A DNA stretch of 64,000 bases from Rhizobium sp. NRK18 (lineage in GTDB: Bacteria; Pseudomonadota; Alphaproteobacteria; Rhizobiales; Rhizobiaceae), in NCBI RefSeq assembly GCF_024385575.1, contig NZ_JANFMV010000004.1, positions 1-64,000 on the forward strand. Reading direction: 5' to 3'. The position numbers and the translations under genes are program-made. Every line of letters begins with the position of its first letter. The first letter of the stretch is position 1. Below the pieces are notes generated by a model, which searched no databases, was not told the DNA's origin, and worked only from the letters and a program-made list of their open reading frames with translations. Positions 17,207-34,986 of the stretch are shown here, piece by piece.

Positions 17207-18430
17207 TCAGGCCTGCGGACGTGCCGCCAGCACCCAGTCCTCACCGAAGCGAACATGCTTGATGCCCTGCCGATAATAGGTGAAGGCGAGATGGATCACG
17301 CCGTCATCCGTCTGAATGATACTCGGATAGGAGAATTCGCGGTTCTGCTTGTCGGCCGAATTGTTGGTCAGGCAATGGCCGTCCCCCACCTCGACGTCGC
17401 GGCGGATCAGGAAGCTCTTGCCCTCGTCCTCGGAGATGGCGATCGTCAACGGCGCACGCGGCGTGCCCCAGACCGCGCCCGGCTGGCCGGGATCCGGCTG
17501 GTCCTCGTCCTTGCCGTCAGCCTCGATCTCGTCGTAAAGCCCGGCCCGGCGGGCCGACCCTTCGCTGGCAGAGCTGTGGTTGTAGATCACCGCCAGCTTG
17601 CCGTCCTGCAGCCGGACCATCTGGATCGACGAATTGTTGTTGGGCAGGTCGGTCGGTTCCGGCGCGCTCCAGCTCAGGCCGCCGTCATTCGAATAGCTGC
17701 GGAAGATGTGGTCGGCGAAGCGTGAGCGATAGACGGCGATCATGCGGTCACCATCGAGGGGAACGATGTTCATGTGCACGGCCCCGAGACTGTCAGGCAC
17801 CGCCACGCGGCGCCAGGTCTTTCCCTCATCGGACGATATGCAGACGGCGCTCGTGTCGCGATGGCCCTTCCAGCGCTTGCCTGCAGGGGCCCGGCACAGG
17901 AATACCGGCAACAGCCAGTCACCGGCGGCATTGACGATGATCGGCTGGCGAACGAAGGTGCCCGGCTCGTCGAACAGCACGCCGACGGGACCGAAGGTCT
18001 CGCCGTTGTCATCGGAAATGCGGTACTTGACCAGCGCCGTCGCCTGATCTCCGAGGATCTGCGACGTGTAGACCAGCCACAGCCGCCCGTCCGGCGCCGT
18101 GAACAGGAAGGGGTTCTGCTCGGACCGCGCCATGTCATCGGTCAGCCTCACCGGCGGCTGCCAGTGCTGTTCGCCCTTCTTGAGTCTCGAGAAATAGATG
18201 CAGACGTCGCCCTTGCCCTCCTGCGAGCCGGCGAACCAGACGCAGGCGAGATCGCCGTTCTTCAGTTCGGCAAGATTGGCCGCATGGCTCTGCGGCTCGG
18301 GACAGGCAAGCCAGGCCTCGTCCCGCTCCTTGTCACCCGGATTAGGCCTAATGATGCCATCCATATGGTCATGGACGTTCTGCGGATTCAGCGCCGGATA
18401 CACGGCCGGCAATGCGTTTTGTACCTGCAT
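17207..18430 (-). CDS. Sialidase-like BNR/Asp-box beta-propeller protein (exo-glycosidase family)
   Basis: A 407-residue six-bladed-propeller protein of the exo-alpha-sialidase superfamily. Four Asp-box-like motifs are visible (ISDDNGETF, SSDEGKTW, SNDGGLSW, SEDEGKSF). There is no signal peptide, so it should act in the cytoplasm on an imported oligosaccharide or glycoconjugate. The start ATG at 18430 has GGGAGGAAAG just upstream; a longer in-frame start at 18454 lacks one. It is divergent from a peptide-type ABC importer, and both promoters carry the shared regulon element. True sialidase activity is doubtful: no nan genes are here apart from a DapA/NanA-family lyase at 29.1 kb. Confidence 0.7.
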   Translation of the reverse strand: MQVQNALPAVYPALNPQNVHDHMDGIIRPNPGDKERDEAWLACPEPQSHAANLAELKNGDLACVWFAGSQEGKGDVCIYFSRLKKGEQHWQPPVRLTDDMARSEQNPFLFTAPDGRLWLVYTSQILGDQATALVKYRISDDNGETFGPVGVLFDEPGTFVRQPIIVNAAGDWLLPVFLCRAPAGKRWKGHRDTSAVCISSDEGKTWRRVAVPDSLGAVHMNIVPLDGDRMIAVYRSRFADHIFRSYSNDGGLSWSAPEPTDLPNNNSSIQMVRLQDGKLAVIYNHSSASEGSARRAGLYDEIEADGKDEDQPDPGQPGAVWGTPRAPLTIAISEDEGKSFLIRRDVEVGDGHCLTNNSADKQNREFSYPSIIQTDDGVIHLAFTYYRQGIKHVRFGEDWVLAARPQA

Positions 18431-18548
18431 TCTTTCCTCCCGAAAGCAAAGCAAGGAAGGGCTTACGCCCCATCGGCAGGCGACATGAATGGTCGCGGCT
18501 GCCCTGACCGGCCTCCTGCCGGAACTGAATGCACAAGTGTTTCCTTCT

Positions 18549-18562
18549 TATGAATTTGTCAA
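18549..18562 (-). promoter_or_regulatory. Shared regulon element, copy 1 (sialidase-like gene promoter)
   Basis: On the minus strand this reads TTGACAAATTCATA, 119 bases before the sialidase-like start. It is one of six related elements beginning TTGACA that lie in three divergent promoter regions, and it could double as a -35 box. See the other copies at 18677, 25764, 25969, 33871 and 33959. Confidence 0.5.
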
Positions 18563-18676
18563 GTTAGGATTTTGATTTTACCCCATCAAGGCCGGCGCAA
18601 TAGAGTCAGGAACAGACAAAAAAATCATTAATTTCATATGGTAACTCGAGAAATCAAGTCTGCGTCGAATTTTTCA

Positions 18677-18697
18677 TTGACATATTTACAAATTGAG
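18677..18697 (+). promoter_or_regulatory. Shared regulon element, copy 2 (dpp-type operon promoter)
   Basis: TTGACATATTTAC at 18677-18689 is identical over 13 bases to copy 4 at 25969, followed by AAATTGAG. It points toward the ABC binding-protein gene 88 bases away. The 354-base divergent gap 18431-18784 otherwise shows only AT-rich sequence without a credible gene. Confidence 0.6.
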
Positions 18698-18784
18698 AAC
18701 AGGTTTTACTCGTTCTAAATTCCGGGACGCTTGGCATCTGGAGAATGCCTGGCTGGACCCGTGGTCGATATGGAGGGAGGAATC

Positions 18785-20422
18785 ATGTCGGACGAGAAGA
18801 ATGCACGATTTGAACTGTCGAGGCGCGGCCTGCTGAAAACGGGCGCCGCCGCCATGGCCGGCGTGTCGGTCTATGCGATGGGCATGCGCTTTGCCGCGGC
18901 CGCCACCGAGCAGGTGCTGATGGTCGCACACCCTGTCTTCACCAATGACTGGTCGCCCCTGCGTGGCGGTGGCGAAAGCTTCCGGTGGAACTCACTCTGG
19001 TGGGCAGCGCCGATGTATTTCGACACCGATGCCAAGCTGCAGCCCTACGTCTTCCAGTCCTGGGAGCCATCCGACGACAAGAAGACCTGGACCTTCAAGC
19101 TTGCCGACGGCGTCAAGTTCTCCGACGGCAGCCCGATCACCGCAGCCGACGTCAAGGGTTCCTGGGAGCTTTGCGCCATGCCGGCGACGAAGAGCCAGCG
19201 CGCCGCCCAGGTTCTCTCCGGCGTGGACGGCTACGACGCCGTGTCCAACGGCAACGGCAAGGAACTTCCCGGCGTCACCACTCCGGATGACACGACCGTC
19301 GTCGTTGCGCTGACCAATGCCGACCCGATCTTCTACATGCGCCTCGCCAACCACATCATCCCGATCGTCAAGGCCTCGCAAGCCCGCGACGCCGACGGCA
19401 ACGAGGTTCAGGACTGGTTCCTGCCGGACAATGGCGGCGTGGTTTCCGGCCCGTTCAAGATGACCGGCATGGACCTGGACGCCGGCAAGATCGTCATGGA
19501 GCCGAACGAGAATTTCTTCGGCCCCGCGCCCAAGCTGACGAAGATCGAGATCAATACGGTCGAAGACTCCGTCGCGGCCACCGCCCTCCTCGAGAACGGC
19601 GACTACAACGCCCACACCGAGCTCGTCACGTCGACGATCATCCAGGACCTCGGCAAGGAATTCTCCTCGGGTCCGCTGATCCCGACCAGCCAGCACTTCT
19701 GGTTCAACACTTCGCGCGCGCCGTTCGATGATCCGAAGGTGCGTCAGGCGCTGATCCTTGCCGTCGACCGCGAAGGCCTGATCAAGGCGACCTTCCCGGA
19801 CGGCCCCTACGCCAAGGCAGACCAGATCATCACGCCGGTGCCAGGCTCCGAGGACAGCGGCTTCGAGCCCTACCCCTTCGATCCGGACCAGGCAAAGGCG
19901 CTCTTGAAGGAATCCAAGTATGGCGGACCGGAACGGCTGCCGAAGATCCTGATCGCCGGCGCATCATCACCTGCCCGCCAGCTGGCCGCCCAGTTCATCG
20001 CCGAGCAATGGCGCCAGAACCTCGGCATCAGCGCGGTCGACATGAAGCCGAGCCAGGACGATTTCGGTCCGGAAGGATCGCAGGTCCAGGTCATCCGCGA
20101 TGACGTCGGCACCCGCGTTCCCGATGCGATCGCCTACCTGCAGAGCTGCATTGCCTCGAGCTCGTCGAACGCGACGAACAAGCTCGGCGGCTACAAGAAC
20201 GAGGCGGTCGACAAGCTTCTGGCGGATGGCGCCGTGCTTGCCGCCGACGACCCGGAGCGCATCAAGAAGGCGCAGGAAGCCCAGAAGCTGTTCCGCGACG
20301 ACTACTGCTTCATCCCGTGGTACGTCGAAGTCATCTCGCGCTGGGCTCTGCCGTCGGTGAAGAACATCGACAAGAACCTGGACTGGCAGGTCGCCAAGCC
20401 CTGGCTGATCGAGATCGCCTGA
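18785..20422 (+). CDS. ABC transporter substrate-binding protein, peptide/nickel/opine type (SBP_bac_5), Tat-exported
   Basis: A 545-residue periplasmic solute receptor of the DppA/OppA family. The signal is of Tat type: SRRGLLK near residue 11 followed by a hydrophobic stretch and an AAA cleavage region. TWTFKLADGVKFSDGSPITA is the family signature. ATG 18785 has GGAGGGAGGA just upstream; earlier in-frame starts do not. The partners dppBCDF-type follow in one operon. In rhizobia such systems import opines, oligosaccharides or acidic sugars as well as peptides; next to a BNR glycosidase a glycoside substrate seems likely. Confidence 0.85.
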   Translation: MSDEKNARFELSRRGLLKTGAAAMAGVSVYAMGMRFAAAATEQVLMVAHPVFTNDWSPLRGGGESFRWNSLWWAAPMYFDTDAKLQPYVFQSWEPSDDKKTWTFKLADGVKFSDGSPITAADVKGSWELCAMPATKSQRAAQVLSGVDGYDAVSNGNGKELPGVTTPDDTTVVVALTNADPIFYMRLANHIIPIVKASQARDADGNEVQDWFLPDNGGVVSGPFKMTGMDLDAGKIVMEPNENFFGPAPKLTKIEINTVEDSVAATALLENGDYNAHTELVTSTIIQDLGKEFSSGPLIPTSQHFWFNTSRAPFDDPKVRQALILAVDREGLIKATFPDGPYAKADQIITPVPGSEDSGFEPYPFDPDQAKALLKESKYGGPERLPKILIAGASSPARQLAAQFIAEQWRQNLGISAVDMKPSQDDFGPEGSQVQVIRDDVGTRVPDAIAYLQSCIASSSSNATNKLGGYKNEAVDKLLADGAVLAADDPERIKKAQEAQKLFRDDYCFIPWYVEVISRWALPSVKNIDKNLDWQVAKPWLIEIA

Positions 20423-20521: not shown

Positions 20522-21478
20522 TTGCTGCGATATGTCGCCAAACGATTTCTGTTGTGGATACCGTCCGTCCTGTTGGTCGTTCTCGCGGTCTACGCACTCG
20601 CCTTCTACGGCACCGGCGATCCGATCAAGCTGATCTTCATCCGCGCCCCGGGCGACGTCGCCTATGATCCCGCGCGCATCGAGGCAATGCGTCAGGCAGC
20701 AGGCCTCGACCAGCCGTTCCTCGTGCAGTTCGGCAAGTATGTCTGGAATTTCGTCCACGGCAATTTCGGCAACTCGCTGGTATCGGGACGTTCGGTCTGG
20801 GTGATGATCAAGGCGGCGACGCCGGTCACCTTCCAGCTCGGCGTCATCACGATCCTGTTCTCGGCGCTGATCGCCATCCCGCTCGGCATGATTGCCGGCC
20901 TCCGGCAGAACAGCAAGCTCGACTACGTCATCCTGTCTTCGGCGCTGTTTGCCTGGGCAATCCCTGCCTATGTGGCCGGCCCCGTGTTGATGGTGGTGTT
21001 GATCACTGTCATGCCCGGCGCCAAGATTCCCTACGGCTGGGGTGGACTTTTCGACGCCCGGATCATTCTGCCGCTCATCGTCCTGTCGTTCCAGCCAATC
21101 GCGCTGACGATCCGACAGACGCGCGCCGCGGTGATCGAAATCCTCAGCGAGGATTTCGTCCGCACCGCCCGCGCCAAGGGCGTACCGGAACTGATGGTGG
21201 CGCTGCGCCACATCCTGCGTCCCGTTCTCACGCCCATCGTCACCCAGCTCGGCATCATGATGATCATCCTGCTCAACGGCGCGATCTTCGTCGAACTGGT
21301 GTTCGGCCTTCCGGGGCTCGGGCGGCTGACAATCCAGTCGCTGATGAACTCCGACTATCCCGTCATTCTCGCCATCACCGTCATCGGGTCCTTCATGGTG
21401 ATGGCGTCCAATCTTCTCGTTGACATTCTCTACCCGCTGCTCGACCCGCGCGCGGCGGATGCGCGGAGGGCGAAATAA
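20522..21478 (+). CDS. ABC transporter permease (DppB/OppB family)
   Basis: A 318-residue inner-membrane permease with six segments. The N-terminus LRYVAKRFLLWIPS and the coupling-helix motif (ARAKGVPELMVALRHILRP, the EAA loop) are typical of DppB. The start is TTG at 20522: GGGAGG at 20509-20514 is seven bases upstream, and no ATG in this frame matches the family N-terminus. Its stop overlaps the next start (TAATG). Confidence 0.9.
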   Translation: MLRYVAKRFLLWIPSVLLVVLAVYALAFYGTGDPIKLIFIRAPGDVAYDPARIEAMRQAAGLDQPFLVQFGKYVWNFVHGNFGNSLVSGRSVWVMIKAATPVTFQLGVITILFSALIAIPLGMIAGLRQNSKLDYVILSSALFAWAIPAYVAGPVLMVVLITVMPGAKIPYGWGGLFDARIILPLIVLSFQPIALTIRQTRAAVIEILSEDFVRTARAKGVPELMVALRHILRPVLTPIVTQLGIMMIILLNGAIFVELVFGLPGLGRLTIQSLMNSDYPVILAITVIGSFMVMASNLLVDILYPLLDPRAADARRAK

Positions 21479-22437
21479 TGGCCGACGCCACGATCCACAC
21501 ACCTGCCATCGCCGAAGAGCCGCCGGCAAACCTGTGGCGTGACGCCTGGACGCGTTTGAAGCGCAACAAGGCGTCGCTCGCCAGCCTGATCATCATCGGA
21601 CTGCTTGCGTTCACCGCCATTTTCGGCCCGTGGCTGACGCCATATGACTTCCTCAGCCAGGACCTGACGGCCCGAAACGTTCCGCCGACCATGGCGCATC
21701 TGCTGGGCACCGACGATCTCGGACGCGACGTGCTGTCGCGGATCATCTACGGCACGCGTACGGCCTTCATCGTCGCCCTGTCAGTGACGTTGATCGCCAT
21801 GGTCATCGGCACCGTGCTCGGCGCCATAGCCGGCTATTTCGGCGGGCTCATCGACAATTTCATCATGTGGCTGACCGACATGACCATGTCCGTGCCGCAG
21901 ATCCTGCTGGTCGTCGTCATCAACGCCTCGCTGAAGCCGCCGCTCAGCAAGTGGATGGAGGCGCAATACCAGGCGACCTTCAATCCCTTCTATCGCAACA
22001 CCGTGCTCATCGACTTCGTGCTGGTGTTCGGTACGATCGCCCTCGTCACATGGCCGCAATATGCCCGCCTGGTGCGCGCACAGGTGCTCGGCGTTCGCTC
22101 GCGGCCCTATGTGACGGCGGCCCGTGCGCTCGGCCTGCCGCCAAGCCTGATCATCCGCCGTTACATCATTCCCAATGCGCTCGGACCGCTGATCGTCGCC
22201 GTCAGCGCCGGTCTCGGCACGGCCATGGTGCTGGAAAGCGCCTTCTCCTTCCTTGGCGTCGGCGTCAGCCCGCCAACCCCAAGCTGGGGTGCGATGATCT
22301 CGGATGGCCTGCGCGTCTGGCGCAACTATCCGCACCTCCTCATTTCGCCGGCGCTGATGCTTGCCGTCGCCACCGTCGCGTTCTCCTTCCTCGGCGACGG
22401 CCTCAACGATGCGCTCAATCCGAAGGGGCAGAAATAA
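21478..22437 (+). CDS. ABC transporter permease (DppC/OppC family)
   Basis: A 319-residue permease. HLLGTDDLGRDVLSRIIYGT is the DppC signature and TAARALGLPPSLIIRRYIIP the EAA coupling loop. The central loop (residues about 150-185, with KWMEAQYQATFNPFYRN) is longer than in E. coli DppC, as in the transporters that carry non-peptide substrates. Both of its ends overlap neighbours by one base. Confidence 0.9.
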   Translation: MADATIHTPAIAEEPPANLWRDAWTRLKRNKASLASLIIIGLLAFTAIFGPWLTPYDFLSQDLTARNVPPTMAHLLGTDDLGRDVLSRIIYGTRTAFIVALSVTLIAMVIGTVLGAIAGYFGGLIDNFIMWLTDMTMSVPQILLVVVINASLKPPLSKWMEAQYQATFNPFYRNTVLIDFVLVFGTIALVTWPQYARLVRAQVLGVRSRPYVTAARALGLPPSLIIRRYIIPNALGPLIVAVSAGLGTAMVLESAFSFLGVGVSPPTPSWGAMISDGLRVWRNYPHLLISPALMLAVATVAFSFLGDGLNDALNPKGQK

Positions 22438-23432
22438 TGGCGGAAAGACTGCTGGACGTTCAAGACCTGGCGATCGAGGTGATGGGCCGCAGCGGCCCGG
22501 CCCGGATCGTCGACGGCATATCGCTGCATGTCGACAAGGGCGAGACGCTCGGCGTGGTCGGCGAAAGCGGCTGCGGCAAGAGCCTGACGATGATGAGCCT
22601 GCTGAAGCTCTTGCCGAACAAGATTTCCGTTGCCGGCGGCACGGCAAACTTCAAGGGCAAGGATCTCCTGGCGATGTCATCATCGGAGCTGCGCAAGGTG
22701 CGCGGCGGCGAGATCGGCTTCGTTTTCCAGGACCCGATGACGTCGCTGAACCCGGTCGTCAAGATCGGCCTGCAGGTGATGGAGCCGCTCATCTACCATA
22801 ACCGGATGTCGAAGGCCGAAGCCCGCAAGCGCGCCGGCGAGCTTCTGGCGCTGGTCGGCATTCCCGGCGCCCAGGAACGGCTCGACAACTATCCGCACGA
22901 ATTGTCCGGCGGCATGCGCCAGCGTGTCATGATCGCCATCGGTCTCGCCTGCAATCCGTCACTGCTGATTGCCGACGAACCGACCACGGCCCTGGACGTC
23001 ACCATCCAGGCGCAGATCGTCGACATCGTCAAGGATCTGCGCACCAAGCTCGGCATGTCCATCGTCTGGATCACCCACGATCTGGCGCTGATCGCAGGGC
23101 TCGTGGACCGCGTCGTCGTGCTTTATGCCGGCACGGTCGTCGAGGATGCGCCGGTCGATGTGCTCTACAGGACGCCGTCTCACCCCTATACGCAGGGGCT
23201 GCTCGCCTCGTTGCCGCATCTGACCGGCGATCCCGGCGAGAAGCTGCCGTCCATTCCGGGAACGCCGCCCGAGCCCGGCCGCAGACCGGCTGGCTGTCCT
23301 TTCGCGCCGCGTTGTCCGATCGCCCGTGCCGAATGCAATGCCGCCGTTCCGAAACTCGCCGATGTCGGCGATGTGGCAGGGCACCGCGTCGCCTGTTTCG
23401 CCGTAACCGGATTTGCGGAGATGGCCGCATGA
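22437..23432 (+). CDS. ABC transporter ATP-binding protein (DppD/OppD family)
   Basis: A 331-residue ATPase. Walker A is GESGCGKS, the signature is LSGGMRQRV, and Walker B is [12 protein letters not shown]. The C-terminal region has the oligopeptide-type domain with the cluster-like cysteines [17 protein letters not shown] 22437 overlaps the preceding stop as TAATG; the long open frame upstream is antisense-like readthrough and is not used. Confidence 0.9.
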
Positions 23433-24424
23433 ACATGATGACCAACACCGATCCGCTGCTGAAGATCGAGGGGCTGACCAAGCACTTCCACGTCAGGCTC
23501 GGGGCTTTCGGCGAAACCGAGGCGGTGGTCTACGCGCTCGATGACCTGACCTTCGACATCATGTCCGGAGAGACGCTGTCCGTCGTCGGCGAGAGCGGCT
23601 GCGGCAAGTCGACCGCCGGCTTCACCATCCTCCAGCTGCACCGGCCGACCAAGGGCAAGATCGTCTATCAGGGCAAGGATATCGCAGGCTTCGACGAGAA
23701 GGGCCTGCAGCCCTTCCGCCGCGACCTGCAGATCATCTTCCAGGATCCCTACTCGACCCTCAATCCGCGCATGACCATTGGCGAGGCGATCGGCGAGCCG
23801 ATGCTGTTTCACAAGCTGGCGACGAAGGCGGAACTGAAGGACAAGGTCGAGCGGCTTCTTGACGATGTCGGCCTGCCCGCACGATTTGCCCGCCGCTATC
23901 CGCACGAGCTTTCCGGGGGACAGCGCCAGCGCGTCGCCATTGCCCGCGCACTTGCCTGCAATCCGAAGTTCATCGTCTGCGACGAGGCGATCTCGGCGCT
24001 CGACGTCTCCGTGCAGGCACAGATCATCAACCTCTTGAAGGACCTGCAGGCGAAATACGGCCTCACCTATCTCTTCATCGCCCACGATCTCGCGGTCGTG
24101 CGCCACATCAGCTCGCGCGTGCTCGTCATGTATCTCGGACGCGCCGCGGAGCTGGGGCCGAGGGACGGCGTGTTCGCCAAGCCGCTTCACCCGTACACCA
24201 AGGCTCTTCTTTCGGCCGTCCCCGAGGCGGACCCGGAACTGGAACGCAAACGGCAGCGCCAGATTCTCGAGGGTGACGTGCCAAGCCCCCTCTCTCCGCC
24301 GGCCGGCTGCCGGTTCCATACGCGGTGTCCGATCGCGGCGCCGCAATGCAGAACCGAGGTGCCGGAATGGCGCGAGGTCCTGCCCGGACATTTCGTCGCC
24401 TGCCATCTGGCAAAGGCGGACTAG
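23429..24424 (+). CDS. ABC transporter ATP-binding protein (DppF/OppF family)
   Basis: A 331-residue ATPase, partner of the preceding one. Walker A is GESGCGKS, signature LSGGQRQRV, Walker B FIVCDEAISALD, with the C-terminal CRFHTRCPIAAPQC cysteine cluster. The ATG overlaps the previous stop (ATGA). Asp-Glu-Ala replaces the common Asp-Glu-Pro in Walker B, a frequent variant in OppF. The operon ends at the terminator 27 bases downstream. Confidence 0.9.
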   Translation: MNMMTNTDPLLKIEGLTKHFHVRLGAFGETEAVVYALDDLTFDIMSGETLSVVGESGCGKSTAGFTILQLHRPTKGKIVYQGKDIAGFDEKGLQPFRRDLQIIFQDPYSTLNPRMTIGEAIGEPMLFHKLATKAELKDKVERLLDDVGLPARFARRYPHELSGGQRQRVAIARALACNPKFIVCDEAISALDVSVQAQIINLLKDLQAKYGLTYLFIAHDLAVVRHISSRVLVMYLGRAAELGPRDGVFAKPLHPYTKALLSAVPEADPELERKRQRQILEGDVPSPLSPPAGCRFHTRCPIAAPQCRTEVPEWREVLPGHFVACHLAKAD

Positions 24425-24515: not shown

Positions 24516-25640
24516 TCACCAGGCCCGGTGATAGATCTCTTGAATCTGCTGCTCGCTGAGATCGACCGGGTTCCAGTCGAGCAGCCGGCGGATGGCATGG
24601 GCCTCGCGCGCCATGTTGGCAAGGTCGTCCTCGGGCACGCCGTGCGCACGCAGGCGCATGTCGAGACCCAGACCTTCGCAGAAGGATTGAGCGCCCTTCA
24701 GCACCGCTTCGGCAGAACCGCCTTCAAAGCCCAGCGCCTTGCAGACCAGCGCCGTCTTTTCCGGCTCCGCGGCCGCATTGACCGCCAGCACATGCGGGAA
24801 GATGAGCGCGTTGGCGATGCCATGGGCAATCTTGTGGCGCGTGCCGAGCGGATAGGCGATCGCGTGGCCGGCCGTCGTGTTGACCGGGCCGAGACAGATA
24901 CCGCCATAGAAGGAGGCCAGCGCCAGTGCCGAGCGCGCCTTCATGTCGGAGCCGTCTTCGACCGCACGCTTCAGGTTCGCGCCGACAAGCTCAATGCCGC
25001 GCAGCGCATAGTCGTCGATCAGCGGATGAGCGCGCTTCGAGGTATAGGCCTCGACGCAATGGGCCATCGCATCGACGCCGGTGGCGGCCGTGATGAAGGG
25101 CGGCACAGTGGCAGTCAGCTCCGGGTCGATGATGGCGATGTCGGCCAGCATGTAGACGCTTTCGGTCGCCACCTTGTTCTGCGTCGCGGGATCGGTGATC
25201 AACGCCCGTGTGCCCACTTCCGAGCCGGTGCCGGCGGTGGTCGGGATCTGCGCCAGGCCGCGGGTGCGGGCCGGAGCACGGTGCGGGCCGGAAATGTCGG
25301 AAAGCGCCTTGCCGCTGCCGGCCATCACCGCAACGAGCTTGGCAAGGTCCATAGCCGAGCCGCCGCCAAAGCCGATGACGAGATCGGCGCCGGCCGCCTC
25401 AGCGGCATGAACCGCCTCCATCAGGTTCGGGAGATCCGGTTCCGGCTTAACGGTGCCGAAGCAGGCGACGTCGCCAAGTCCAAGCACATGAAGACGCGCG
25501 GCATTGACCGTGTCGGCGATGACAAACGGCTTGCGGTAGCCATGGGCTTCCACCCAGGCGGCCAGCTTCGTCAGCGTGCCCTCGCCGAACTGAACGATCG
25601 GCGGCCGCAACATTTCCAACGGATGATTGAGGGCAAGCAT
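24516..25640 (-). CDS. Iron-containing alcohol dehydrogenase (group III ADH / maleylacetate reductase-like)
   Basis: A 374-residue NAD(P)-dependent dehydrogenase of the iron-type family. GFGGGSAMDLAK (residues about 89-100) binds the cofactor, IPTTAGTGSEV is the second signature, and metal ligands are the Asp/His of GVDAMAHCVEA and the histidines in GHAIAYPLGTRHKIAHG. It would reduce an aldehyde or oxidise a primary or secondary alcohol. It is divergent from the TCT operon and carries regulon element copy 3 in its promoter, so it belongs to the same pathway, perhaps reducing an aldehyde produced by the DapA-family lyase. Confidence 0.8.
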   Translation of the reverse strand: MLALNHPLEMLRPPIVQFGEGTLTKLAAWVEAHGYRKPFVIADTVNAARLHVLGLGDVACFGTVKPEPDLPNLMEAVHAAEAAGADLVIGFGGGSAMDLAKLVAVMAGSGKALSDISGPHRAPARTRGLAQIPTTAGTGSEVGTRALITDPATQNKVATESVYMLADIAIIDPELTATVPPFITAATGVDAMAHCVEAYTSKRAHPLIDDYALRGIELVGANLKRAVEDGSDMKARSALALASFYGGICLGPVNTTAGHAIAYPLGTRHKIAHGIANALIFPHVLAVNAAAEPEKTALVCKALGFEGGSAEAVLKGAQSFCEGLGLDMRLRAHGVPEDDLANMAREAHAIRRLLDWNPVDLSEQQIQEIYHRAW

Positions 25641-27577: not shown

Positions 27578-27599
27578 TTCACGACATGATGAGCTCCGC

Positions 27600-29078
27600 A
27601 TGATGGAATATCTCAGCTACCTCCTTCCGCTGTTCCACCCGGACGTCCTCTGGGCGATCGCACTCGGCACGCTCGGCGGCATCGTCATCGGCGCGCTGCC
27701 CGGCCTGACGGCCACCATGGGCGTTGCCCTGCTGATCCCGCTGACCTTCGGCATGGCGCCGGTGATGGGCATCAACATGCTCATCGGCATCTATATCGGC
27801 GGCATCTATGGCGGCTGCATCTCTGCGATCCTGCTGCGGACGCCCGGCACCCCGGCTTCCGCAGCAACCGTTCTCGACGGCTACCCGATGGCGCAGAAGG
27901 GCGAGGCCGGCAAGGCGCTCGGCATGGCGACGATCGCGTCTGCTGTCGGCACCCTGTTTGCCTCGATCGTGCTGGCCACGCTCGCCCCGCAGCTTGCAAC
28001 CGTCGCGCTGAAGTTCGGTGCGCCGGAATATTTCGCCCTTTCGCTTTTCGGTCTCACCATCATCGCGTCGCTCTCGGGCGATCTTCTGAAGGGCGCCATT
28101 TCCGGGTGCCTCGGCGTGCTGATCTCCTGCGTTGGCGCCGATCCGATTTCCGGCGTCCTGCGCTACACATTTGGCGTATCCGGCTTCGCGTCGGGCTTTT
28201 CCTTCACGCCGGCGCTGATCGGTCTCTTCGCGCTTTCGGAAGTCTTCACCCAGCTCGAGCATCTCGGTCGCAGCGACGGCACGGTGGCAAAGGTTTCCGG
28301 CCGCTGGCCGTCCGGCCGCGACATGCGCGAAAGCGCCAATGCGCTGGTCCGCGGCTCCATCATCGGCACGATCATCGGCATCATTCCGGGCACGGGCTCG
28401 GGCACCGCATCCTGGATTTCCTATAATGAGGCACGGCGCACGTCGAAGAAGCCGCATCTTTTCGGCACGGGGTATGCACCGGGTGTGGCGGCGACGGAAA
28501 GCGCCAACAATGCTGTTTGCGCAGGCGCGCTCATTCCGCTTCTCGCCCTCGGCATTCCCGGCGACGTGGTCACCGCCGTCCTGATGGGCGGCCTGATGAT
28601 CCAGGGCCTGGCGCCCGGACCGATGCTGTTCCAGTCGCGCCCGGACGTCATCGTCGGCATTTTCGGCGGCACGTTCATCGCGACGCTCTTCATGTTCATC
28701 TTCGGCATGCTGCTGATCCCGATCGCCTCGAAGATCCTGCTCGTGCCGCGTCGCATCCTGACGATGTCGATCGTCGTCTTCTGCTTCATCGGCTCGTTTG
28801 CGATCAACCTCAACCCGGTCGATCTCTACACCATGGTCGGCTTCGGCATTCTCGGCTGGGGCATGCAGAAATACGGCTTCTCGCAGGCTGCCCTCTGCAT
28901 CGCGCTGATCCTCGGCCCGCTGGCGGAAGCCAATCTGCGCCGCGGCCTGCTGCAGACCGGCGACGATGTGCTCGCCTTCGTCTCCGGCCCGATCACGCTT
29001 CTCTTCCTCGGCCTGTCGATCGTCTCGCTCGCCCTTCCCTTCATCCAGGCCCGCCGCGCCAAGACGTCCGCCGCCTGA
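27600..29078 (+). CDS. tctA: Tripartite tricarboxylate transporter large permease (TctA family)
   Basis: A 492-residue inner-membrane protein of about eleven or twelve segments, the sodium- or proton-coupled channel of the TCT system. GALPGLTATMGVALLIPLTF and IGIIPGTGSGTASWISYNEA are the duplicated family motifs, and GALIPLLALGIPGD is the third landmark. Length is standard. Tandem ATG codons at 27600 and 27603 are both possible. Confidence 0.9.
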   Translation: MMEYLSYLLPLFHPDVLWAIALGTLGGIVIGALPGLTATMGVALLIPLTFGMAPVMGINMLIGIYIGGIYGGCISAILLRTPGTPASAATVLDGYPMAQKGEAGKALGMATIASAVGTLFASIVLATLAPQLATVALKFGAPEYFALSLFGLTIIASLSGDLLKGAISGCLGVLISCVGADPISGVLRYTFGVSGFASGFSFTPALIGLFALSEVFTQLEHLGRSDGTVAKVSGRWPSGRDMRESANALVRGSIIGTIIGIIPGTGSGTASWISYNEARRTSKKPHLFGTGYAPGVAATESANNAVCAGALIPLLALGIPGDVVTAVLMGGLMIQGLAPGPMLFQSRPDVIVGIFGGTFIATLFMFIFGMLLIPIASKILLVPRRILTMSIVVFCFIGSFAINLNPVDLYTMVGFGILGWGMQKYGFSQAALCIALILGPLAEANLRRGLLQTGDDVLAFVSGPITLLFLGLSIVSLALPFIQARRAKTSAA

Positions 29079-29096: not shown

Positions 29097-29978
29097 ATGT
29101 CCAAATCGGCCTATGTCGCCCTTGTCACCTGCTTCAACGAAGATGAGACCATCAACTACGAGGCGACGCGCGCCCAGGTCCGCCGCCAGATTGCCGCCGG
29201 CAACAACATCCTGTGCGCCGGAACGAACGGCGACTTCAGCGCGCTGACCTTCGAGGAGAAGGTTCGGCTGACCGAGGAAGTCGTCGACGAAGTGGCCGGC
29301 AAGGTGAAGGTGATCGTCAATGCCGGCATGCCGGCGACGTTCGAGACCGTGAAACTCTCCCGCGAATTCGATCGCATCGGCGTCGACGGCATCGCCGTGA
29401 TCACGCCGTTCTTCATCGCCTGCACGCAGGAGGGGCTGATCCGGCACTTCTCGACGGTCGCCGACGCCGTCAACACGCCGATCTACCTTTACGATATTCC
29501 GGCCCGCACCCAGAACCACATCGAGCCGGAAACGGCCCGCAAGCTCGCCGCGCACGGCAACATCGCCGGCATCAAGGATTCCGGCGGCGCTCAGGAAACG
29601 CTCGCCGCCTACATGGCCGTTGGCCGCGAAATGCCGGGCTTCGACGTCTACTCGGGTCCCGACCACCTTGTGCTCTGGTCGCTGGAAAACGGCGCCGCCG
29701 GCTGCATTTCCGGCCTTGGCAACGTCCTGCCAGACGTGCTTGCTAATATCATCAACGCCTTCAACAAGGGCGATCGCGAAGAAGCCCTCCGAAACCAGGA
29801 AATTTACACGAATTTCCGCACGGATCTTTACGCACTCGGCTTCCCGCCGGCGCTGGTCAAGCGTTCGCTTTTCCTCATGGACAGCTCCGTCGGCGCCAGC
29901 CGCCAGCCGGCCCTGCTGCCGAACGCCGAGCAGGACGCCAAGGTCCTTGAAATCCTGAAGAAGTACGGCCGCGCCTGA
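29097..29978 (+). CDS. DapA/NanA-family (class I) lyase or dehydratase
   Basis: A 293-residue TIM barrel. The Schiff-base lysine is Lys160 (AGIKDSGG) and the catalytic tyrosine Tyr132 (YLYDIPARTQ). The substrate loop is GTNGDFSAL, where true DapA has GTTGE, so it probably does not make dihydrodipicolinate. The family includes N-acetylneuraminate lyase, KDG aldolase, and sugar-acid dehydratases. Embedded in a TCT operon and controlled together with a BNR hydrolase, it probably cleaves or dehydrates a 2-keto or acid sugar. AAGGAG precedes the ATG; its stop overlaps the next start (ATGA). Confidence 0.75.
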   Translation: MSKSAYVALVTCFNEDETINYEATRAQVRRQIAAGNNILCAGTNGDFSALTFEEKVRLTEEVVDEVAGKVKVIVNAGMPATFETVKLSREFDRIGVDGIAVITPFFIACTQEGLIRHFSTVADAVNTPIYLYDIPARTQNHIEPETARKLAAHGNIAGIKDSGGAQETLAAYMAVGREMPGFDVYSGPDHLVLWSLENGAAGCISGLGNVLPDVLANIINAFNKGDREEALRNQEIYTNFRTDLYALGFPPALVKRSLFLMDSSVGASRQPALLPNAEQDAKVLEILKKYGRA

Positions 29979-30943
29979 TGACTGTCATCCTGACCACATC
30001 GCCGGGCTTCGGCAAGCATGGCCGCGTACCGGAGCGCCTGAAGGAGCTTGGCTGGGAACTGATCCGCTGCGTCGACACAAGCCTGCCGGACGGCGGGGTT
30101 TCGGCCCACATCGCCCGCGCCGACTACATGGTCGTCGGCCTCGTGCCGGTGACCGCCCAGATGCTGGAAGGTGCGACGAAGCTGAAAGCCGTCCTTAAGC
30201 ACGGCGTCGGCGTCGACAATATCGACATTCCCGCTTGCACCGCCCGGGGGCTGCCGGTTGCCAACACGCCCGGTGCCAATGCCGATGCGGTTGCCGAACT
30301 CGCCGTCGGCATGATGCTGTCGCTTGCCCGCAATATCCCGGCCGGCCACCAGAGCGTCGTCACCGGCGGCTGGGACCGCAAGGTCGGCAGCCAGATCGGC
30401 GGCAAGACGCTCGGCATCGTCGGCCTCGGCAATATCGGCAGATCGCTCGCCCGCATGGCGCGCGGCATGGGCATGACCGTCGTCGCCACCGATCCCTATG
30501 CCGACAAGGCCTTCGCCGCCGACAACGGCATCGAACTCGTGGACCTCGACGATCTGCTCGGCCGCGCCGACTATGTCTCGCTCCACGTATTCGGCGGTGC
30601 CGGGAATGCCTCGCTGATCAATGCCGACAAGCTGCGGCTGATGAAGCCGACCGCCCGCCTGCTCAATCTCGCCCGCGGCGAGGTGGTCGACCTCGACGCG
30701 CTGGCCGAAGCCTTGAACGAAGGCCGTCTCGGCGGAGCCGGCATAGACGCCTACATCAAGGAGCCGCCGGAGACCACGCATCCGATCTTCTCGCATCCCC
30801 GGGTGGTCTTCATGCCGCATTCGGGCGCTGACACGGTCGAGGCCGTCGAGAATGTCGGCCTGATGAACATTGCCGACATCGAGGAACTGATGGCTGGCGG
30901 AAAGCCGCGCCGCGTGCTGAACCCGGACGTCTTCGAAAGCTGA
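29978..30943 (+). CDS. D-2-hydroxyacid dehydrogenase (phosphoglycerate dehydrogenase-like)
   Basis: A 321-residue NAD-dependent enzyme. The cofactor site is GIVGLGNIGRSLARMA, and the catalytic residues are Arg in LARGEVVD, Glu in KEPPETTHP and His in PHSGADT. The HGVGVDNIDIPACTARGLPV segment is typical of the SerA-like branch. There is no ACT domain, so it is a catabolic type rather than SerA. It may interconvert a 2-oxo acid and a D-2-hydroxy acid formed from the lyase product. Confidence 0.75.
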   Translation: MTVILTTSPGFGKHGRVPERLKELGWELIRCVDTSLPDGGVSAHIARADYMVVGLVPVTAQMLEGATKLKAVLKHGVGVDNIDIPACTARGLPVANTPGANADAVAELAVGMMLSLARNIPAGHQSVVTGGWDRKVGSQIGGKTLGIVGLGNIGRSLARMARGMGMTVVATDPYADKAFAADNGIELVDLDDLLGRADYVSLHVFGGAGNASLINADKLRLMKPTARLLNLARGEVVDLDALAEALNEGRLGGAGIDAYIKEPPETTHPIFSHPRVVFMPHSGADTVEAVENVGLMNIADIEELMAGGKPRRVLNPDVFES

Positions 30944-30945
30944 TC

Positions 30946-31995
30946 ATGGACCATTTCCCCATTCCCGCGCTGGTCGGCTTTGCGACCGACGTCTTCTCCG
31001 CGGCCGGTCTCGCAAGGGAAAAGGCCGCAGCCGTTGCGACCTATCTGGTCGAAGCCGATGCCATGGGCCACACAACCCACGGACTGGCACTCGCCCCCTG
31101 GTATCTGCAGGGCATCGCCGACGGTGTGGTCACCTGCGACGGCGAGCCGGAGGTCGTCTCCGACAAGGGACCGGCGATCTGCTGGCGAGGCAAGCGGCTG
31201 CCCGGCGCCTGGCTGACGTCGCAGGGCGTCAAGCTCGCTGTCGACAGGGCACGGCAATTCGGCACGGCGACGCTGGTGATCGGCGACAGCCATCACATTG
31301 GCGCGCTTGCCGCCTATCTGCAGATCGCGACGGATCAGGGCATGATGGTGTCGATCGCCTCGTCGTCGCCGTCCGGCGCGCAGGTGGCACCCTTCGGCGG
31401 CCGGACTGGCGTCTTTACTCCCGACCCGGTCGCCTACGGCATTCCGACGCCGGGCGACCCGATCCTGATCGACATTTCCGCCTCCATCACCACGGTCAAC
31501 ATGGCCCAGCGCATGATCCGCGAGGGTAGGCGCTATGCCGAGAAGTGGGTCATGGAAGCCGACGGAACGCCGACCGACGACCCTGAGGCCGTCACGCGCG
31601 GCGGCACGCTGCTGCCGACCGGCGGGCTGGATCATGGCCAAAAGGGCTATGGCATGGCTCTGTCGGTCGAGGCCATCACACAGGGGCTCGCCGGCTATGG
31701 CCGCGCCGATGCGCCGAAGGGCACGAACGCCGCCGTCACCATCAGCGTCTACGACCCCGAGGCTTTCGGCGGCAGCGATGCTTTCCTGAAGCAGACCAGC
31801 TGGCTGGTGGATGCCTGCAAGGCTTCAACGCCTTTGGACCCGAACGCACCGGTGCGTCTGCCGGGTCAGGCGGCGCTTGCGCGCAAGCGCAAGGCGGAAG
31901 CCGAAGGCGTCGTCTTCCACCCCGGCATCTGGCCGGCGCTGGTCTCAGCGGCAGAAAAACTGGGCGTGGCCGCGCCCGAACCTAGGAACGGCTGA
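30946..31995 (+). CDS. Ldh-family (malate/L-sulfolactate type) NAD(P)-dependent oxidoreductase
   Basis: A 349-residue member of the Ldh2/YlbC/ComC family. The catalytic His is in DSHHIGALAAYL, and AYGIPTPGDPILIDISASIT with GHTTHGLALAPWYL and GLDHGQKGYGMALSVEA are family landmarks. Members oxidise L-2-hydroxy acids (malate, sulfolactate, ureidoglycolate) or reduce cyclic imines such as piperideine-2-carboxylate. Together with the preceding D-specific enzyme it could invert a 2-hydroxy acid. Its last 14 bases overlap the convergent GntR gene. Confidence 0.75.
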   Translation: MDHFPIPALVGFATDVFSAAGLAREKAAAVATYLVEADAMGHTTHGLALAPWYLQGIADGVVTCDGEPEVVSDKGPAICWRGKRLPGAWLTSQGVKLAVDRARQFGTATLVIGDSHHIGALAAYLQIATDQGMMVSIASSSPSGAQVAPFGGRTGVFTPDPVAYGIPTPGDPILIDISASITTVNMAQRMIREGRRYAEKWVMEADGTPTDDPEAVTRGGTLLPTGGLDHGQKGYGMALSVEAITQGLAGYGRADAPKGTNAAVTISVYDPEAFGGSDAFLKQTSWLVDACKASTPLDPNAPVRLPGQAALARKRKAEAEGVVFHPGIWPALVSAAEKLGVAAPEPRNG

Positions 31996-32731
31996 GGTCC
32001 AGGAGCGCGCCGCCAAACAGGCGATCGCGCGAATGAACGAGGTGGTCGCGCATCAGGGTCCGCGCGGCCTCCACATTATGGGCCTTGATGGCGGTGAAGA
32101 TCGCCGAGTGTTCCTTGAACACGTCCTGCAGCCCCTTCGGGCCATCCGACATCAGCGACTTGCCGTGCATCTTCATGCCGACGGCGATGTGTTCGCGCAA
32201 CGCCCGCATCGACGCCTCGAAGTAATGGTTGCGCGCGCCTGCCGCCACCGCCAGGTGGAAGGCGAAGTCCGCATCCTCACGGTGCTGGTGGGAAAGCGTG
32301 GCGGCATCCATAAGCCTCAGGGCTTCCTCCATCGACTTGAGGTTGTCGTCGCTGCGGCGTTGGGCTGCGAGCCCTGCGGCTTCGGTTTCGAGATTGATTC
32401 GAAACTCGTAGCAGCGCTGTATATCGGCAATCGTCTCGACCTTGGCAAAGCCCAGAGCCTGTCCCTGCGGTGCGCGCACATAGCTGCCTGCGCCCTGACG
32501 GGAATAGACGAGGCCTTCGGCCCTCAGCCGCTCCAGCGCCGTGCGCAATACAGGCCGAGATACGCCGAATTCCTCGCTCAGATTGACCTCCGGCGGAAGC
32601 TTGGAATTGGCCGCGTAGTCGCCATTGGAGATGCGGGCATAGAGCATGTGATAGACACGCTCGGCGAGCGCCGGCTTCGCTTTTGACCGCGCGTTCTTGT
32701 CTGCATCGTCTGACGAATTGGCAACCGACAT
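31982..32731 (-). CDS. GntR-family regulator (FCD/FadR subfamily), candidate master of the 17-35 kb regulon
   Basis: A 249-residue regulator. The winged helix includes NLSEEFGVSRPVLRTALERL (residues about 50-69), and the FCD domain follows with its metal-binding His in DADFAFHLAVAAGARNH. It is read from the kinase gene's promoter, 18 bases behind it, with AAGGAG before the ATG. The kinase promoter contains the perfect palindrome GACAAATTTGTC, one of six related elements in three divergent regions; this protein is the only regulator inside that block, so it probably binds them and autoregulates. Confidence 0.85.
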   Translation of the reverse strand: MSVANSSDDADKNARSKAKPALAERVYHMLYARISNGDYAANSKLPPEVNLSEEFGVSRPVLRTALERLRAEGLVYSRQGAGSYVRAPQGQALGFAKVETIADIQRCYEFRINLETEAAGLAAQRRSDDNLKSMEEALRLMDAATLSHQHREDADFAFHLAVAAGARNHYFEASMRALREHIAVGMKMHGKSLMSDGPKGLQDVFKEHSAIFTAIKAHNVEAARTLMRDHLVHSRDRLFGGALLDLSRS

Positions 32732-32749: not shown

Positions 32750-33832
32750 TCAGTCTATCTCGCAGGCGTTCGGAAAATCAATGTCTTCCGCGATCTGCAG
32801 CAGACAGTCCACATCCCCGAAGCCACCTGATTTGGTGGCCAGCAGAATGTTTTTGTCACCGAGACGCACCATCCCGGCCGGAACGCCGGGGGAAAGCTCG
32901 CCGACAAGGGTGATCACGCCGACGCCCGACGCGCCCAGCACCGCATCGGCAGTCTCGCCACCGCAGCACAGCAGGGAGCGGATATCCTGTTGCGTCAGCC
33001 GACAGACGCTGGCCGAGAAGTTATGGCCGGCCTCGTGGCCGTCGATGGCAGCCGCGCCGGCGGTCATCTGCAGAACCGTCAAGGACCTAACGGCCGGATC
33101 TCCATCGTCTGGCAGCGTGCCGTTGGGCGCCTCGATCCAGTTCGGCCGCGCCACGGCGCGCAAACGCTCGAGCTGGGCAAGCGTGATCGGGTCGCGGGAA
33201 CCGCAGGCAAGCAAGGCCGGTGCGGCAAGCCGCGGCGCCCTGCGATCCGTCGCATCTGCCGGCGCCATCTCATCGGCGAGCGCGAGCGCCAGTCCGGCTG
33301 CGCCGACAAGCAGGTCCTCCTTGCCCGCCTCCGCAACGATCCGAGCGAGATCCGCCTTGTCGGCGGCATCCGGCGCTTTGATGGAGAGGCCGGATCCTGC
33401 CAATCGCGCCGCGATGTCAATCGGCTCCAAAACGCCCCTGCCCCGCAGGAAGCCGGCAACGACCGTCCGCGCCTGGGTCGGTATCGCCGGGCAGACGATG
33501 GCCCTTGAGGCACCACCGAGCCGGGCCACTTCCTCCACCTCGGCCGCGACATGTCCCTTGAGACGCGAATCCACCTTCTTGAACAGACGGGGAGCAGGAG
33601 CGGCCATTGCGCGGACAAGCGCCCCAATGCGGGCGACCGCTCGACGGGCATCCGCCTCGCTGCCTTCGCGTGAAGCCGTCGACACGGCCGCAACGTCGAC
33701 ATCGCCATGCAACAGGCTTTCGAGATCTTCCGGACGGCGGGCAACCATCGTTTTGAGGCCACGCGCTGCAAACGGAACCGCGCTATCGAGCGCACCCGTC
33801 AGGTCGTCCGCGATGATCAGCAGTCTTGTCAT
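32750..33832 (-). CDS. dtnK: DUF1537 four-carbon acid sugar kinase (DtnK-like)
   Basis: A 360-residue kinase of the DUF1537 family, which phosphorylates C4 acid sugars at O4. N-terminal substrate motifs are ADDLTGALD and KKVDSRLKG; C-terminal nucleotide motifs are CGGETADAVL, GELSPGVP and ATKSGGFGD. The divergent gene is pdxA2, and DtnK plus PdxA2 are known to convert D-threonate through its 4-phosphate to DHAP and carbon dioxide. At 360 residues it is about 60 shorter than typical members and than the OtnK homologue at 44.6 kb, without loss of the listed motifs. D-erythronate-type specificity is possible too. Confidence 0.75.
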   Translation of the reverse strand: MTRLLIIADDLTGALDSAVPFAARGLKTMVARRPEDLESLLHGDVDVAAVSTASREGSEADARRAVARIGALVRAMAAPAPRLFKKVDSRLKGHVAAEVEEVARLGGASRAIVCPAIPTQARTVVAGFLRGRGVLEPIDIAARLAGSGLSIKAPDAADKADLARIVAEAGKEDLLVGAAGLALALADEMAPADATDRRAPRLAAPALLACGSRDPITLAQLERLRAVARPNWIEAPNGTLPDDGDPAVRSLTVLQMTAGAAAIDGHEAGHNFSASVCRLTQQDIRSLLCCGGETADAVLGASGVGVITLVGELSPGVPAGMVRLGDKNILLATKSGGFGDVDCLLQIAEDIDFPNACEID

Positions 33833-33870
33833 GGTCGTCAGTTACCCTTTCAATTGACGCACACCGTACC

Positions 33871-33888
33871 TAGACAAATTTGTCAAAA
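33871..33888 (-). promoter_or_regulatory. Shared regulon element, copy 5 (kinase-GntR promoter), perfect palindrome
   Basis: GACAAATTTGTC at 33873-33884 is a perfect 12-bp palindrome; on the minus strand it reads TTTTGACAAATTTGTCTA toward the kinase gene, whose start is 38 bases away. It is the most symmetrical of the six copies and probably the best operator. Confidence 0.65.
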
Positions 33889-33958
33889 CAAGTGATATTT
33901 TCCAACGTTAAATTTGAAAATAACAATGAAATCAATAAATCAACAATCATATGCGATG

Positions 33959-33979
33959 TTGACATTTTGTAAATTTATG
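33959..33979 (+). promoter_or_regulatory. Shared regulon element, copy 6 (pdxA2 promoter)
   Basis: TTGACATTTTGTAAATTTATG, 35 bases before the pdxA2 start (the first 20 bases are the conserved part). It points toward pdxA2. The surrounding 33,890-33,980 sequence is very AT-rich. Confidence 0.55.
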
Positions 33980-34014
33980 AGGCAAATAGCCTGTCTTCAA
34001 AACAGGAGTGCATC

Positions 34015-34986
34015 ATGACCAGTACCACCGCCGGCGCGCCATTCGTCATCACCATGGGCGACCCTTCCGGCGTCGGGGCGGAAGTCTCGCTGAAGGCGCT
34101 CGCGACCCTGCCTGCCGCCGAGCGCAGCCGCTACGCGATCATCGGCGACCTGCCGACGCTTGAGCGCGCCCGGGCCGCCTGTGGTCTCGATCTCTCCTTC
34201 GAAGCGGGCGCCGAAGGCGGTGTCCGAGTGGTTCACGTGCCGGTTGAAGGTCTGCCGGGCGAATTCGGCGTCCTGTCGCCGCGCTGCGGCGAAGCCTCCT
34301 TCCAGTTCATCAAGACCGCCGTCGACATGGCGGCCGCCGGCACGGCCGCGGGCATCGTCACCGCCCCCATCAACAAGGAAGCGCTGAACTCGGCGGGCCA
34401 CCACTATGACGGCCACACCGGCATGCTGGCGCACCTGACCGGCTGCAAGTCTTCATGGATGCTGCTCGCATCGGAGCGTCTGAACGTCATCCACGTCTCC
34501 ACCCATGTCTCGCTCAAGGATGCGATCGACCGGGCCACGCCTGAACGCGTGGCGGCGACGATCCGCACCGGCTACAATCATTTCCGCCGCATGGGCGTCG
34601 AAAACCCGCGCATCGCGGTCGCCGGCATCAATCCGCATTGCGGCGAAAACGGCCTTTTCGGCCGCGAGGACGACCTGCAGATCGTTCCGGGCGTTGAAAT
34701 GGCCAAGGCTGAAGGCATCAATGTCGTCGGCCCGATCTCGGCCGATACCGTTTACCACCGCGCCTATCAGGGCGCCTTCGATCTCGTGGTGGCGCAGTAT
34801 CACGACCAGGGCCATATCCCGATCAAGCTGATCGCCTTCCATACCGCCGTCAACTGCTCGCTCGGCCTGCCCATCGACCGCGTTTCGGTCGATCACGGGA
34901 CGGCTTTCGATATTGCCGGCAAGGGTATCGCCAATCACGTCAACATGCTTTCAGCGCTCGAATACGCCCGCAAGCTGGCGGCCTGA
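34015..34986 (+). CDS. pdxA2: PdxA2-type 4-phosphothreonate dehydrogenase/decarboxylase
   Basis: A 323-residue member of the PdxA family. [13 protein letters not shown] starts the fold; metal-binding histidines lie in [10 protein letters not shown] and [11 protein letters not shown]. The catabolic PdxA2 branch oxidises and decarboxylates 4-phospho-D-threonate (or the erythronate form) to DHAP. It is placed here rather than in vitamin B6 synthesis because it faces a DUF1537 kinase and lacks ksgA/surA/pdxJ neighbours. CAGGAG precedes the ATG at good spacing. Confidence 0.8.

Follow-up and report, generated by a model that had tools for sequence, protein, structure and literature searches.

One version of a widely shared bacterial pathway that probably breaks a rare seven-carbon pectin acid sugar into two ordinary metabolites

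The D-threonate kinase and PdxA2 reactions are established for their protein families, as is Schiff-base pyruvate chemistry for DapA-family lyases, and for the D-threonate consumed by the kinase/PdxA2 pair (DtnK/PdxA2) no natural source is known to us. The primary cell walls of plants contain rhamnogalacturonan II (RG-II). In the available parts of the sources on RG-II, the acid sugar 3-deoxy-D-lyxo-heptulosaric acid (Dha) has RG-II as its only reported plant source (PMC12168206), the side chain that bears it ends in Araf (PMC12282258), and Dha is called a seven-carbon analogue of sialic acid, with an enzyme that cuts it from RG-II already known (PMC6811678). We found no account of the bacterial fate of free Dha in the literature searched. 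A further study, in the portions available, describes the Escherichia coli region GR 6, listed for seven strains besides the strain Nissle 1917 viewed here and filed under uncharacterised features, itself remarks on the resemblance to a cluster of Sinorhizobium meliloti 1021, links the kinase/PdxA2 pair with the synthesis of pyridoxal phosphate and proposes, in those portions, no substrate or route (PMC12928451). Here we analyse the opening 64 kb of contig C4 from Rhizobium sp. NRK18 (genome 4.5 Mb), hereafter the window, in which a block of genes between 17207 and 34986 is one version of a widely shared, so far unexplained bacterial pathway that probably degrades this rare C7 acid sugar from plant pectin to two common metabolites. 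From gene content, co-conservation, a shared upstream motif, protein fold, active-site residues and stereochemical bookkeeping, we consider it very probable that the block encodes a conserved acid-sugar pathway ending in dihydroxyacetone phosphate (DHAP) and likely that its substrate is a C7 2-keto-3-deoxy diacid; that this diacid is Dha is what we infer, at a probability of roughly 0.55.

Genes were assigned by Pfam and NCBIfam profile searches of the open reading frames (ORFs) listed between 17207 and 34986, and those named in an earlier note on this DNA are all present as ORFs where it had placed them. Five of them are central here: a BNR_2 protein (17207..18430, minus strand; Pfam BNR_2 on ORF 17207-18454), whose most likely start, the ATG at 18430, gives 407 residues, the same as database protein P0001; an iron-type alcohol dehydrogenase (Fe-ADH; 24516..25640, minus strand, Pfam Fe-ADH); a DapA-family Schiff-base lyase (29097..29978, plus strand, Pfam DHDPS 1.5e-54); a short-form DUF1537 four-carbon acid sugar kinase (32750..33832, minus strand, Pfam SBD_N and NBD_C); and PdxA2 (34015..34986, plus strand, NCBIfam PdxA). 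Neighbourhoods of the lyase were sampled from the best 80 of 130 relatives, all with at least 79% identity in the best segment, and gene presence was scored in 10 kb flanks with per-family identity thresholds that we chose; with ten loci shorter than 19.6 kb left out, BNR, Fe-ADH and PdxA2 occur together in 66 of the 70 remaining loci. Because a sample picked by the lyase could be biased, a second search used BNR alone, which at E <= 1e-40 is found in 9 of 299 Pseudomonadota genomes and in 26 of the 199 sampled from the same family (own genome counted). Every other BNR place at this threshold, with the own-genome BNR excluded, was then taken as a locus, giving 29 loci (25 from the family sample and four only from the phylum sample). 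The lyase, Fe-ADH, PdxA2 and DUF1537 all lie near BNR in 23 of these and at least three of the four in 26, while none of 20 control regions, drawn from 13 genomes of the BNR-locus set, has even two of the partners (one control has a lyase match). Six BNR loci are incomplete, of which L135, L148, L161 and L162 are cut by contig ends and L139 and L140 are not.

Gene by gene, Fe-ADH is present in 27 of the 29 BNR loci and the lyase and kinase in 25 each; TctA (one locus), the D-hydroxyacid dehydrogenase (two) and the Ldh_2 dehydrogenase (two) are rare. These locus counts define the core as BNR, lyase, Fe-ADH, kinase and PdxA2. The partners are kept despite divergent versions of the proteins, with 26% identity between the lyases of the window and Rhizobium lentis and 31-33% between the Fe-ADH of the window and those of Pantoea and Comamonadaceae. 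The earlier note had named in advance a neighbourhood search as the check on its grouping of BNR, tct and kinase units: the 29 loci, set against the controls, show the BNR and kinase units to be co-conserved, whereas BNR and tct mostly are not. The refuting condition named there was thus borne out for tct and not for the kinase.

A lyase, an aldehyde reductase and a D-threonate end point together imply a C7 2-keto-3-deoxy diacid as substrate and D-threuronate as the aldehyde. In the route that we propose, DppABCDF would import a glycosylated form of the acid sugar, with DppA as the receptor, and the BNR protein would open this form in the cytoplasm and free the acid sugar, while TctBCA would import the free diacid. 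The DapA-family lyase, as a putative Dha retro-aldolase, would split open-chain Dha into pyruvate and D-threuronate, a C4 aldehydo acid, which Fe-ADH, as a threuronate reductase, would reduce to D-threonate. The kinase, as a proposed D-threonate 4-kinase, would then form D-threonate 4-phosphate, and PdxA2, as a proposed decarboxylating D-threonate-4-phosphate dehydrogenase, would oxidise and decarboxylate it to DHAP and CO2. Fischer bookkeeping leads from Dha to D-threonate and from Kdo (3-deoxy-D-manno-octulosonic acid) to D-arabinose. The outline in the earlier note, of import, release, retro-aldol cleavage, redox adjustment to a tetronate, phosphorylation and decarboxylation to DHAP, fits the conserved neighbourhoods, but its generic acid sugar gives way to a C7 diacid such as Dha. 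No described version of the route was found in the literature, most subscription journals being outside the scope of the search. As other candidates, a C6 keto-deoxy-glucarate was set aside by reasoning only, as it would give a C3 and not a C4 acid, and sialic acid and Kdo were set aside on stereochemical bookkeeping, as they give the wrong aldehyde for a tetronate kinase.

The genomic context of pectin degradation supports Dha without proving it. In Streptomyces NBC_00184, a BNR-lyase-Dpp locus sits among a pectinesterase, two GH28 genes and an apiosidase-like gene. A PDB search with a Streptomyces neighbour returned no match. Within the family sample, GH28, counted above the Pfam cut-off (BNR-negative genome G051, with a weaker match, left out), occurs in 13 of 26 BNR-positive and 7 of 173 BNR-negative genomes. 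The contig of the window itself carries at 98-117 kb (C4:98000-117900, L203) an oligosaccharide cluster with GH38, GH28, GH88, three Gfo/Idh oxidoreductases and ABC importer genes, and in genome G265 a GH88/GH28 cluster lies about 19 kb from BNR. The system is also widely spread: BNR is matched in 314 plasmid records and a window-type lyase, at E <= 1e-100, in 120, and 1043 of 5426 E. coli genomes contain a stretch 60-80% identical to a Klebsiella lyase-symporter query, which among the matches listed is the lyase part, 35% of the query. For plasmids and E. coli we relied on the existing annotation of a handful of records that we picked, not at random; in the one E. coli genome viewed, Nissle 1917, the cluster (CIW80_RS21150-CIW80_RS21190) lies between glnS and nagE. 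The cluster genes of Rhizobium johnstonii 3841 are RL_RS26360-RL_RS26410.

The alternative that survives best, which we nevertheless regard as unlikely, keeps the same logic with another C7 2-keto-3-deoxy diacid as substrate, or with Dha from another carrier, e.g. a bacterial polysaccharide. By our bookkeeping the parts fix the carbon count and the stereochemistry at C5 and C6, and C4 drawn left or right leads to D-threonate in both cases; nor do the parts fix the natural source, and the lyase also occurs in many E. coli. Dha is, however, the only fitting natural compound known to us, many of the hosts live in association with plants and the system shows links to pectin genes, while the absence of the word "heptulosaric" from the literature searched on Dha in bacterial polysaccharides settles little.

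The active site of the lyase bears on the C4 product of Dha cleavage. The GTNGD sequence that the earlier note had read in place of GTTGE is real and is usual in the subfamily as GTNG[DE]. Of the E. coli DapA residues whose catalytic roles we take as given, the lyase keeps Lys161, Tyr133 and Arg138 and carries Phe for Tyr107, and so lacks the full set; it also scores under the DapA model TIGR00674 (194.2 bits vs a cut-off of 206.15). In DapA, Arg138 binds the carboxylate of a C4 aldehydo acid, and its retention in the main lyase type suits a C4 aldehydo acid as product; NanA and YagE do not have it.

We saw no signal peptide on the BNR protein, which is therefore probably cytoplasmic. Fold comparison identifies it as a sialidase propeller, and in HMMER alignments to NanB and NanC it has His219 in place of the catalytic Glu of the GH33 Tyr/Glu pair; for these positions we presume NanB E541 and R557 as the reference residues. 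His219 is invariant across 33 aligned BNR sequences (a Streptomyces member, with Gln at this position, was left out). Arg235 aligns with one Arg of the sialidase arginine triad, Arg325 and Tyr368, both invariant in the 33 sequences, fit by eye a triad Arg and the nucleophile, and the first triad Arg appears, also by eye, to be replaced by His49. A profile match to 5mqr, presumably BT_1020, covers 47 residues only (E 0.0052), and GH143 structures are not among the fold matches listed for BNR. In Pantoea, Klebsiella and E. coli Nissle, a YhcH/NanQ-type gene adjoins BNR. In the Klebsiella pneumoniae record CP125156 (L098:9989-10798) the BNR gene looks broken, with an unannotated open piece of 269 residues and a match in two pieces.

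This sialidase fold, together with the membership of the lyase in the NanA superfamily, the YhcH anomerase-like partner in relatives and the presence of Kdo, likewise, in RG-II (according to the available parts of the sources), would suit a pathway for Kdo or a sialic-acid-like ulosonic acid, with BNR as a ketosidase and the DapA-family protein as a NanA-like lyase. We consider such a pathway improbable: the D-arabinose from Kdo requires neither D-threonate kinase nor PdxA2, the lyase falls far under the N-acetylneuraminate lyase cut-offs (115.5 of 281 for NF003164 and 89.5 of 382 for TIGR00683), and no N-acetylmannosamine (ManNAc) kinase or epimerase is found among the block genes.

For the D-threonate end of the Dha route, the window kinase is a 360-residue short form with matches to both DUF1537 domains, and its best NCBIfam match is the D-threonate kinase model NF047819, under the cut-off. 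Klebsiella relatives pass for both the kinase (507.8, cut-off 450) and PdxA (667.3, cut-off 583), and the Pantoea PdxA passes as D-threonate 4-phosphate dehydrogenase (658.8 vs 583). The window PdxA2 is nearer to the D-threonate 4-phosphate dehydrogenase 6e85 (256.7 bits) than to the PdxA 1ps7 (159.9), and in the E. coli Nissle cluster the two genes are annotated as dtnK and D-threonate 4-phosphate dehydrogenase. A Caballeronia locus with the same gene set carries a fusion (L094:8133-10439) in which an N-terminal DUF1537 and a C-terminal PdxA form one 768-residue chain. The kinase/PdxA2 pair was reportedly described by Zhang in 2016 as a catabolic pair on its own, which would allow D-threonate or a D-threonyl glycoside to be the substrate here, with the lyase and Fe-ADH processing the other half of the molecule; we find this equally improbable, as across the 29 BNR loci the lyase and Fe-ADH are kept no less often than the kinase, and both persist in the Tct clusters of genomes that have no BNR.

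The importers differ between loci. In the window, the DppA-type binding protein (ORF 18731-20422; 18785..20422 from the ATG at 18785, plus strand, Pfam SBP_bac_5 6.9e-68) carries the twin-arginine signal SRRGLLK, in line with the Tat-type export suggested before, and is followed by DppB, DppC, DppD and DppF permeases and ATPases (20522..24424, plus strand; DppB and DppD by Pfam, DppC and DppF by position and relatives). The tripartite tricarboxylate importer TctB-TctC-TctA lies at 26054..29078 (plus strand; TctA 504 bits, TctC 143 bits, TctB by position and relatives). The four of the 70 long lyase loci that lack BNR are exactly the four with TctA. In the window BNR is 11 kb away from the lyase, a distance that flanks of 10 kb do not cover, and whole genomes were therefore searched for BNR: four of the five genomes with Tct loci have no match at E <= 1e-30, the genome of L008 has BNR elsewhere, and the four long Tct loci accordingly comprise three from genomes without BNR and that of L008. 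Rhizobium sp. TCK has a Tct version, with TctB-TctC-TctA in the same order as in the window and no annotated BNR or Dpp within the 27 kb viewed. BNR and tct, grouped in one co-regulated block by the earlier note, are thus mostly not co-conserved in the loci of relatives, with exceptions in the window (both), in L158 (BNR/Dpp with a TctC match at the locus end) and in a Comamonadaceae plasmid with a TctC-like gene beside BNR.

BNR/Dpp and TctBCA therefore look like alternative front ends, although not strictly so, and the simplest reading is that Tct takes up the free acid, for which no BNR is needed, and Dpp a form that BNR must open. The window DppC, DppD and DppF share 70-79% identity with their counterparts in Rhizobium-type BNR loci, whereas from Fe-ADH to PdxA2 the gene order follows that of the Tct clusters in Paramesorhizobium and Phyllobacterium (L007, L009), as if two modules had been joined to make the block. 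Related loci in Pantoea, Caballeronia and Klebsiella have an SSS symporter, the Azospirillum locus another type of ABC importer, and E. coli Nissle a CitMHS/SLC13 permease (CitMHS/Na_sulph_symp match). The importers of carboxylate families, TctBCA in the window and CitMHS/Na_sulph_symp in E. coli, support an acid substrate such as Dha. Next to the lyase gene lie a D-2-hydroxyacid dehydrogenase (29978..30943, plus strand, Pfam) and an Ldh_2-family L-2-hydroxyacid dehydrogenase (30946..31995, plus strand, Pfam Ldh_2 1.9e-78). Among the 80 lyase loci the former occurs in all five Tct loci and three others, and the latter in three of the five Tct loci; given their rarity in BNR loci they are an accessory unit, which may oxidise 2-hydroxy analogues to the 2-keto acid, and Fe-ADH, presumably acting in the direction of reduction, is the best candidate for the redox step of the route. 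It is very improbable that Tct and these two dehydrogenases form a separate, merely adjacent 2-hydroxyacid racemising pathway of the sulfolactate SlcHFG/SlcC/ComC type, for although the three family types match those of the sulfolactate set and Ldh_2 matches the L-sulfolactate dehydrogenase model NF040650, its 135.5 bits are far under the cut-off of 500, the unit sits within an Fe-ADH/DapA/kinase/PdxA cluster in Rhizobium sp. TCK, and the window TctB carries the motif that is shared across the block.

This motif was found in three divergent intergenic regions, which hold six TTGACA sites, one toward each gene start, that align past the hexamer within a longer common motif. The sites lie upstream of BNR (18543..18566, minus strand, core TTGACAAATTCATAAG), DppA (18673..18696, plus strand, core TTGACATATTTACAAA), Fe-ADH (25763..25786, minus strand, core TTGACAAATATGTAAA), TctB (25965..25988, plus strand, core TTGACATATTTACGAT), the kinase (33867..33890, minus strand, core TTGACAAATTTGTCTA) and PdxA2 (33955..33978, plus strand, core TTGACATTTTGTAAAT). 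In leave-one-out scoring, 3 to 30 of 127,954 window positions score equal to or higher than a given site, and no site of the neighbouring SDR/ABC genes comes close (17.4 bits at 35854 vs 24-33 for the six). The pattern TTGACAWATTTRTMAA, derived from the block sites themselves, matches at one mismatch or fewer only three places in the whole genome, all inside the block; at two mismatches it finds one further block site and four places on C1, and its reversed control has three matches genome-wide. The BNR, DppA, Fe-ADH and kinase sites are recovered in this way, and those of TctB and PdxA2, more than two bases off the pattern, are not. TTGACA is also the sigma-70 -35 hexamer. Co-regulation of the block, as asserted earlier, is supported by the six shared sites and falls short of proof; an FCD/GntR protein encoded within it (31982..32731, minus strand, Pfam/NCBIfam) is a candidate regulator.

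Several observations weigh against the proposed Dha route or particular steps of it. The window kinase and PdxA2 score 99.8 and 283.7 against the D-threonate cut-offs of 450 (NF047819) and 583 (NF002891), and the corresponding pairs of Comamonadaceae (115.9 and 334.5) and Caballeronia (160.4 and 336.3) also fall under them. The BNR protein has no sialidase catalytic Glu, and the Pantoea YhcH is under the NanQ cut-off (86.7 vs 160). Rhizobium-type, Caballeronia and Streptomyces lyases do not have Arg138, so that the support drawn from this residue holds for one lyase type only. At the Streptomyces locus, a PelZ-like match is weak (124 of 840 bits) and no Fe-ADH, kinase or PdxA2 is annotated in 25 kb. 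The non-pectin control GH10, found in 12 of 26 BNR-positive and 29 of 173 BNR-negative genomes, shows an enrichment too, if a smaller one, and for apiosidase the difference (5 of 26 and 17 of 173) is not significant; moreover, the genomes of the family sample are related, so these comparisons, like that for GH28, are not independent. The proposed route leaves the accessory dehydrogenases without explanation, and the SSS and SLC13 importers suggest a small substrate, in which case the job of BNR is hard to place.

Elsewhere in the window, a TerC-family membrane protein (16568-17191, minus strand) lies directly downstream of BNR. Another TerC, 24% identical to it, stands between the lyase and BNR in E. 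coli Nissle, and in the other loci scanned TerC occurs only in L037 (44% identical to the E. coli protein, about 1 kb past the lyase); its place beside BNR in the window and E. coli Nissle is probably chance. A separate D-erythronate cluster at 41213-45952 (minus strand) encodes a D-erythronate dehydrogenase (358 bits, cut-off 325), a 3-oxo-tetronate kinase (548, cut-off 350), a 3-oxo-tetronate 4-phosphate decarboxylase (299, cut-off 250) and a 2-oxo-tetronate isomerase-like protein under its cut-off (291 vs 325), matches that place two tetronate routes next to each other on the contig. A GH2-family glycosidase (52351-54597, plus strand) has the gene of a sugar ABC binding protein nearby. Neither Rfam, applied at gathering scores, nor a search for tRNA genes gave a match.

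If the Dha route is correct, a five-gene unit would explain both the bacterial fate of Dha and a natural source of D-threonate, would suggest, for a family with the sialidase fold and changed catalytic residues, a function that can be tested, and would supply a substrate for the E. coli region listed, in the available text, as uncharacterised (PMC12928451). More tentatively, this could be the first recognised bacterial Dha route, present in rhizobia, plant-associated Enterobacterales and apparently about one fifth of complete E. coli genomes, with the natural source of D-threonate explained and BNR as a new enzyme family with His for the catalytic Glu.

Among described systems, the nan pathway for sialic acid (NanA/NanQ and a sialidase) resembles the block in its sialidase-fold protein, its Schiff-base pyruvate lyase and, in enterobacteria, its YhcH/NanQ-like partner, and differs from it in that the block is proposed to act on a C7 diacid, whose C4 acid would be reduced and phosphorylated toward DHAP without ManNAc steps. 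The D-threonate catabolism of DtnK (DUF1537) and PdxA2 shares its last two steps with the block, which adds a sialidase-fold protein, a lyase and an Fe-ADH that would supply the D-threonate, and the window proteins are divergent, with a short kinase. The GH143 Dha hydrolase of B. thetaiotaomicron cuts the sugar proposed here with a sialidase-like propeller and is described, in the available text, as a bimodular enzyme with a five-fold propeller and a Tyr-Glu pair (PMC6811678), whereas the match of the window BNR extends over whole sialidase domains, with His where the Glu would stand. Closest in composition are GR 6 (nagE..glnS) of E. coli BEN2908 and the S. meliloti 1021 cluster, which, as presented in the available portions of that study, have the same gene set as the block (PMC12928451).

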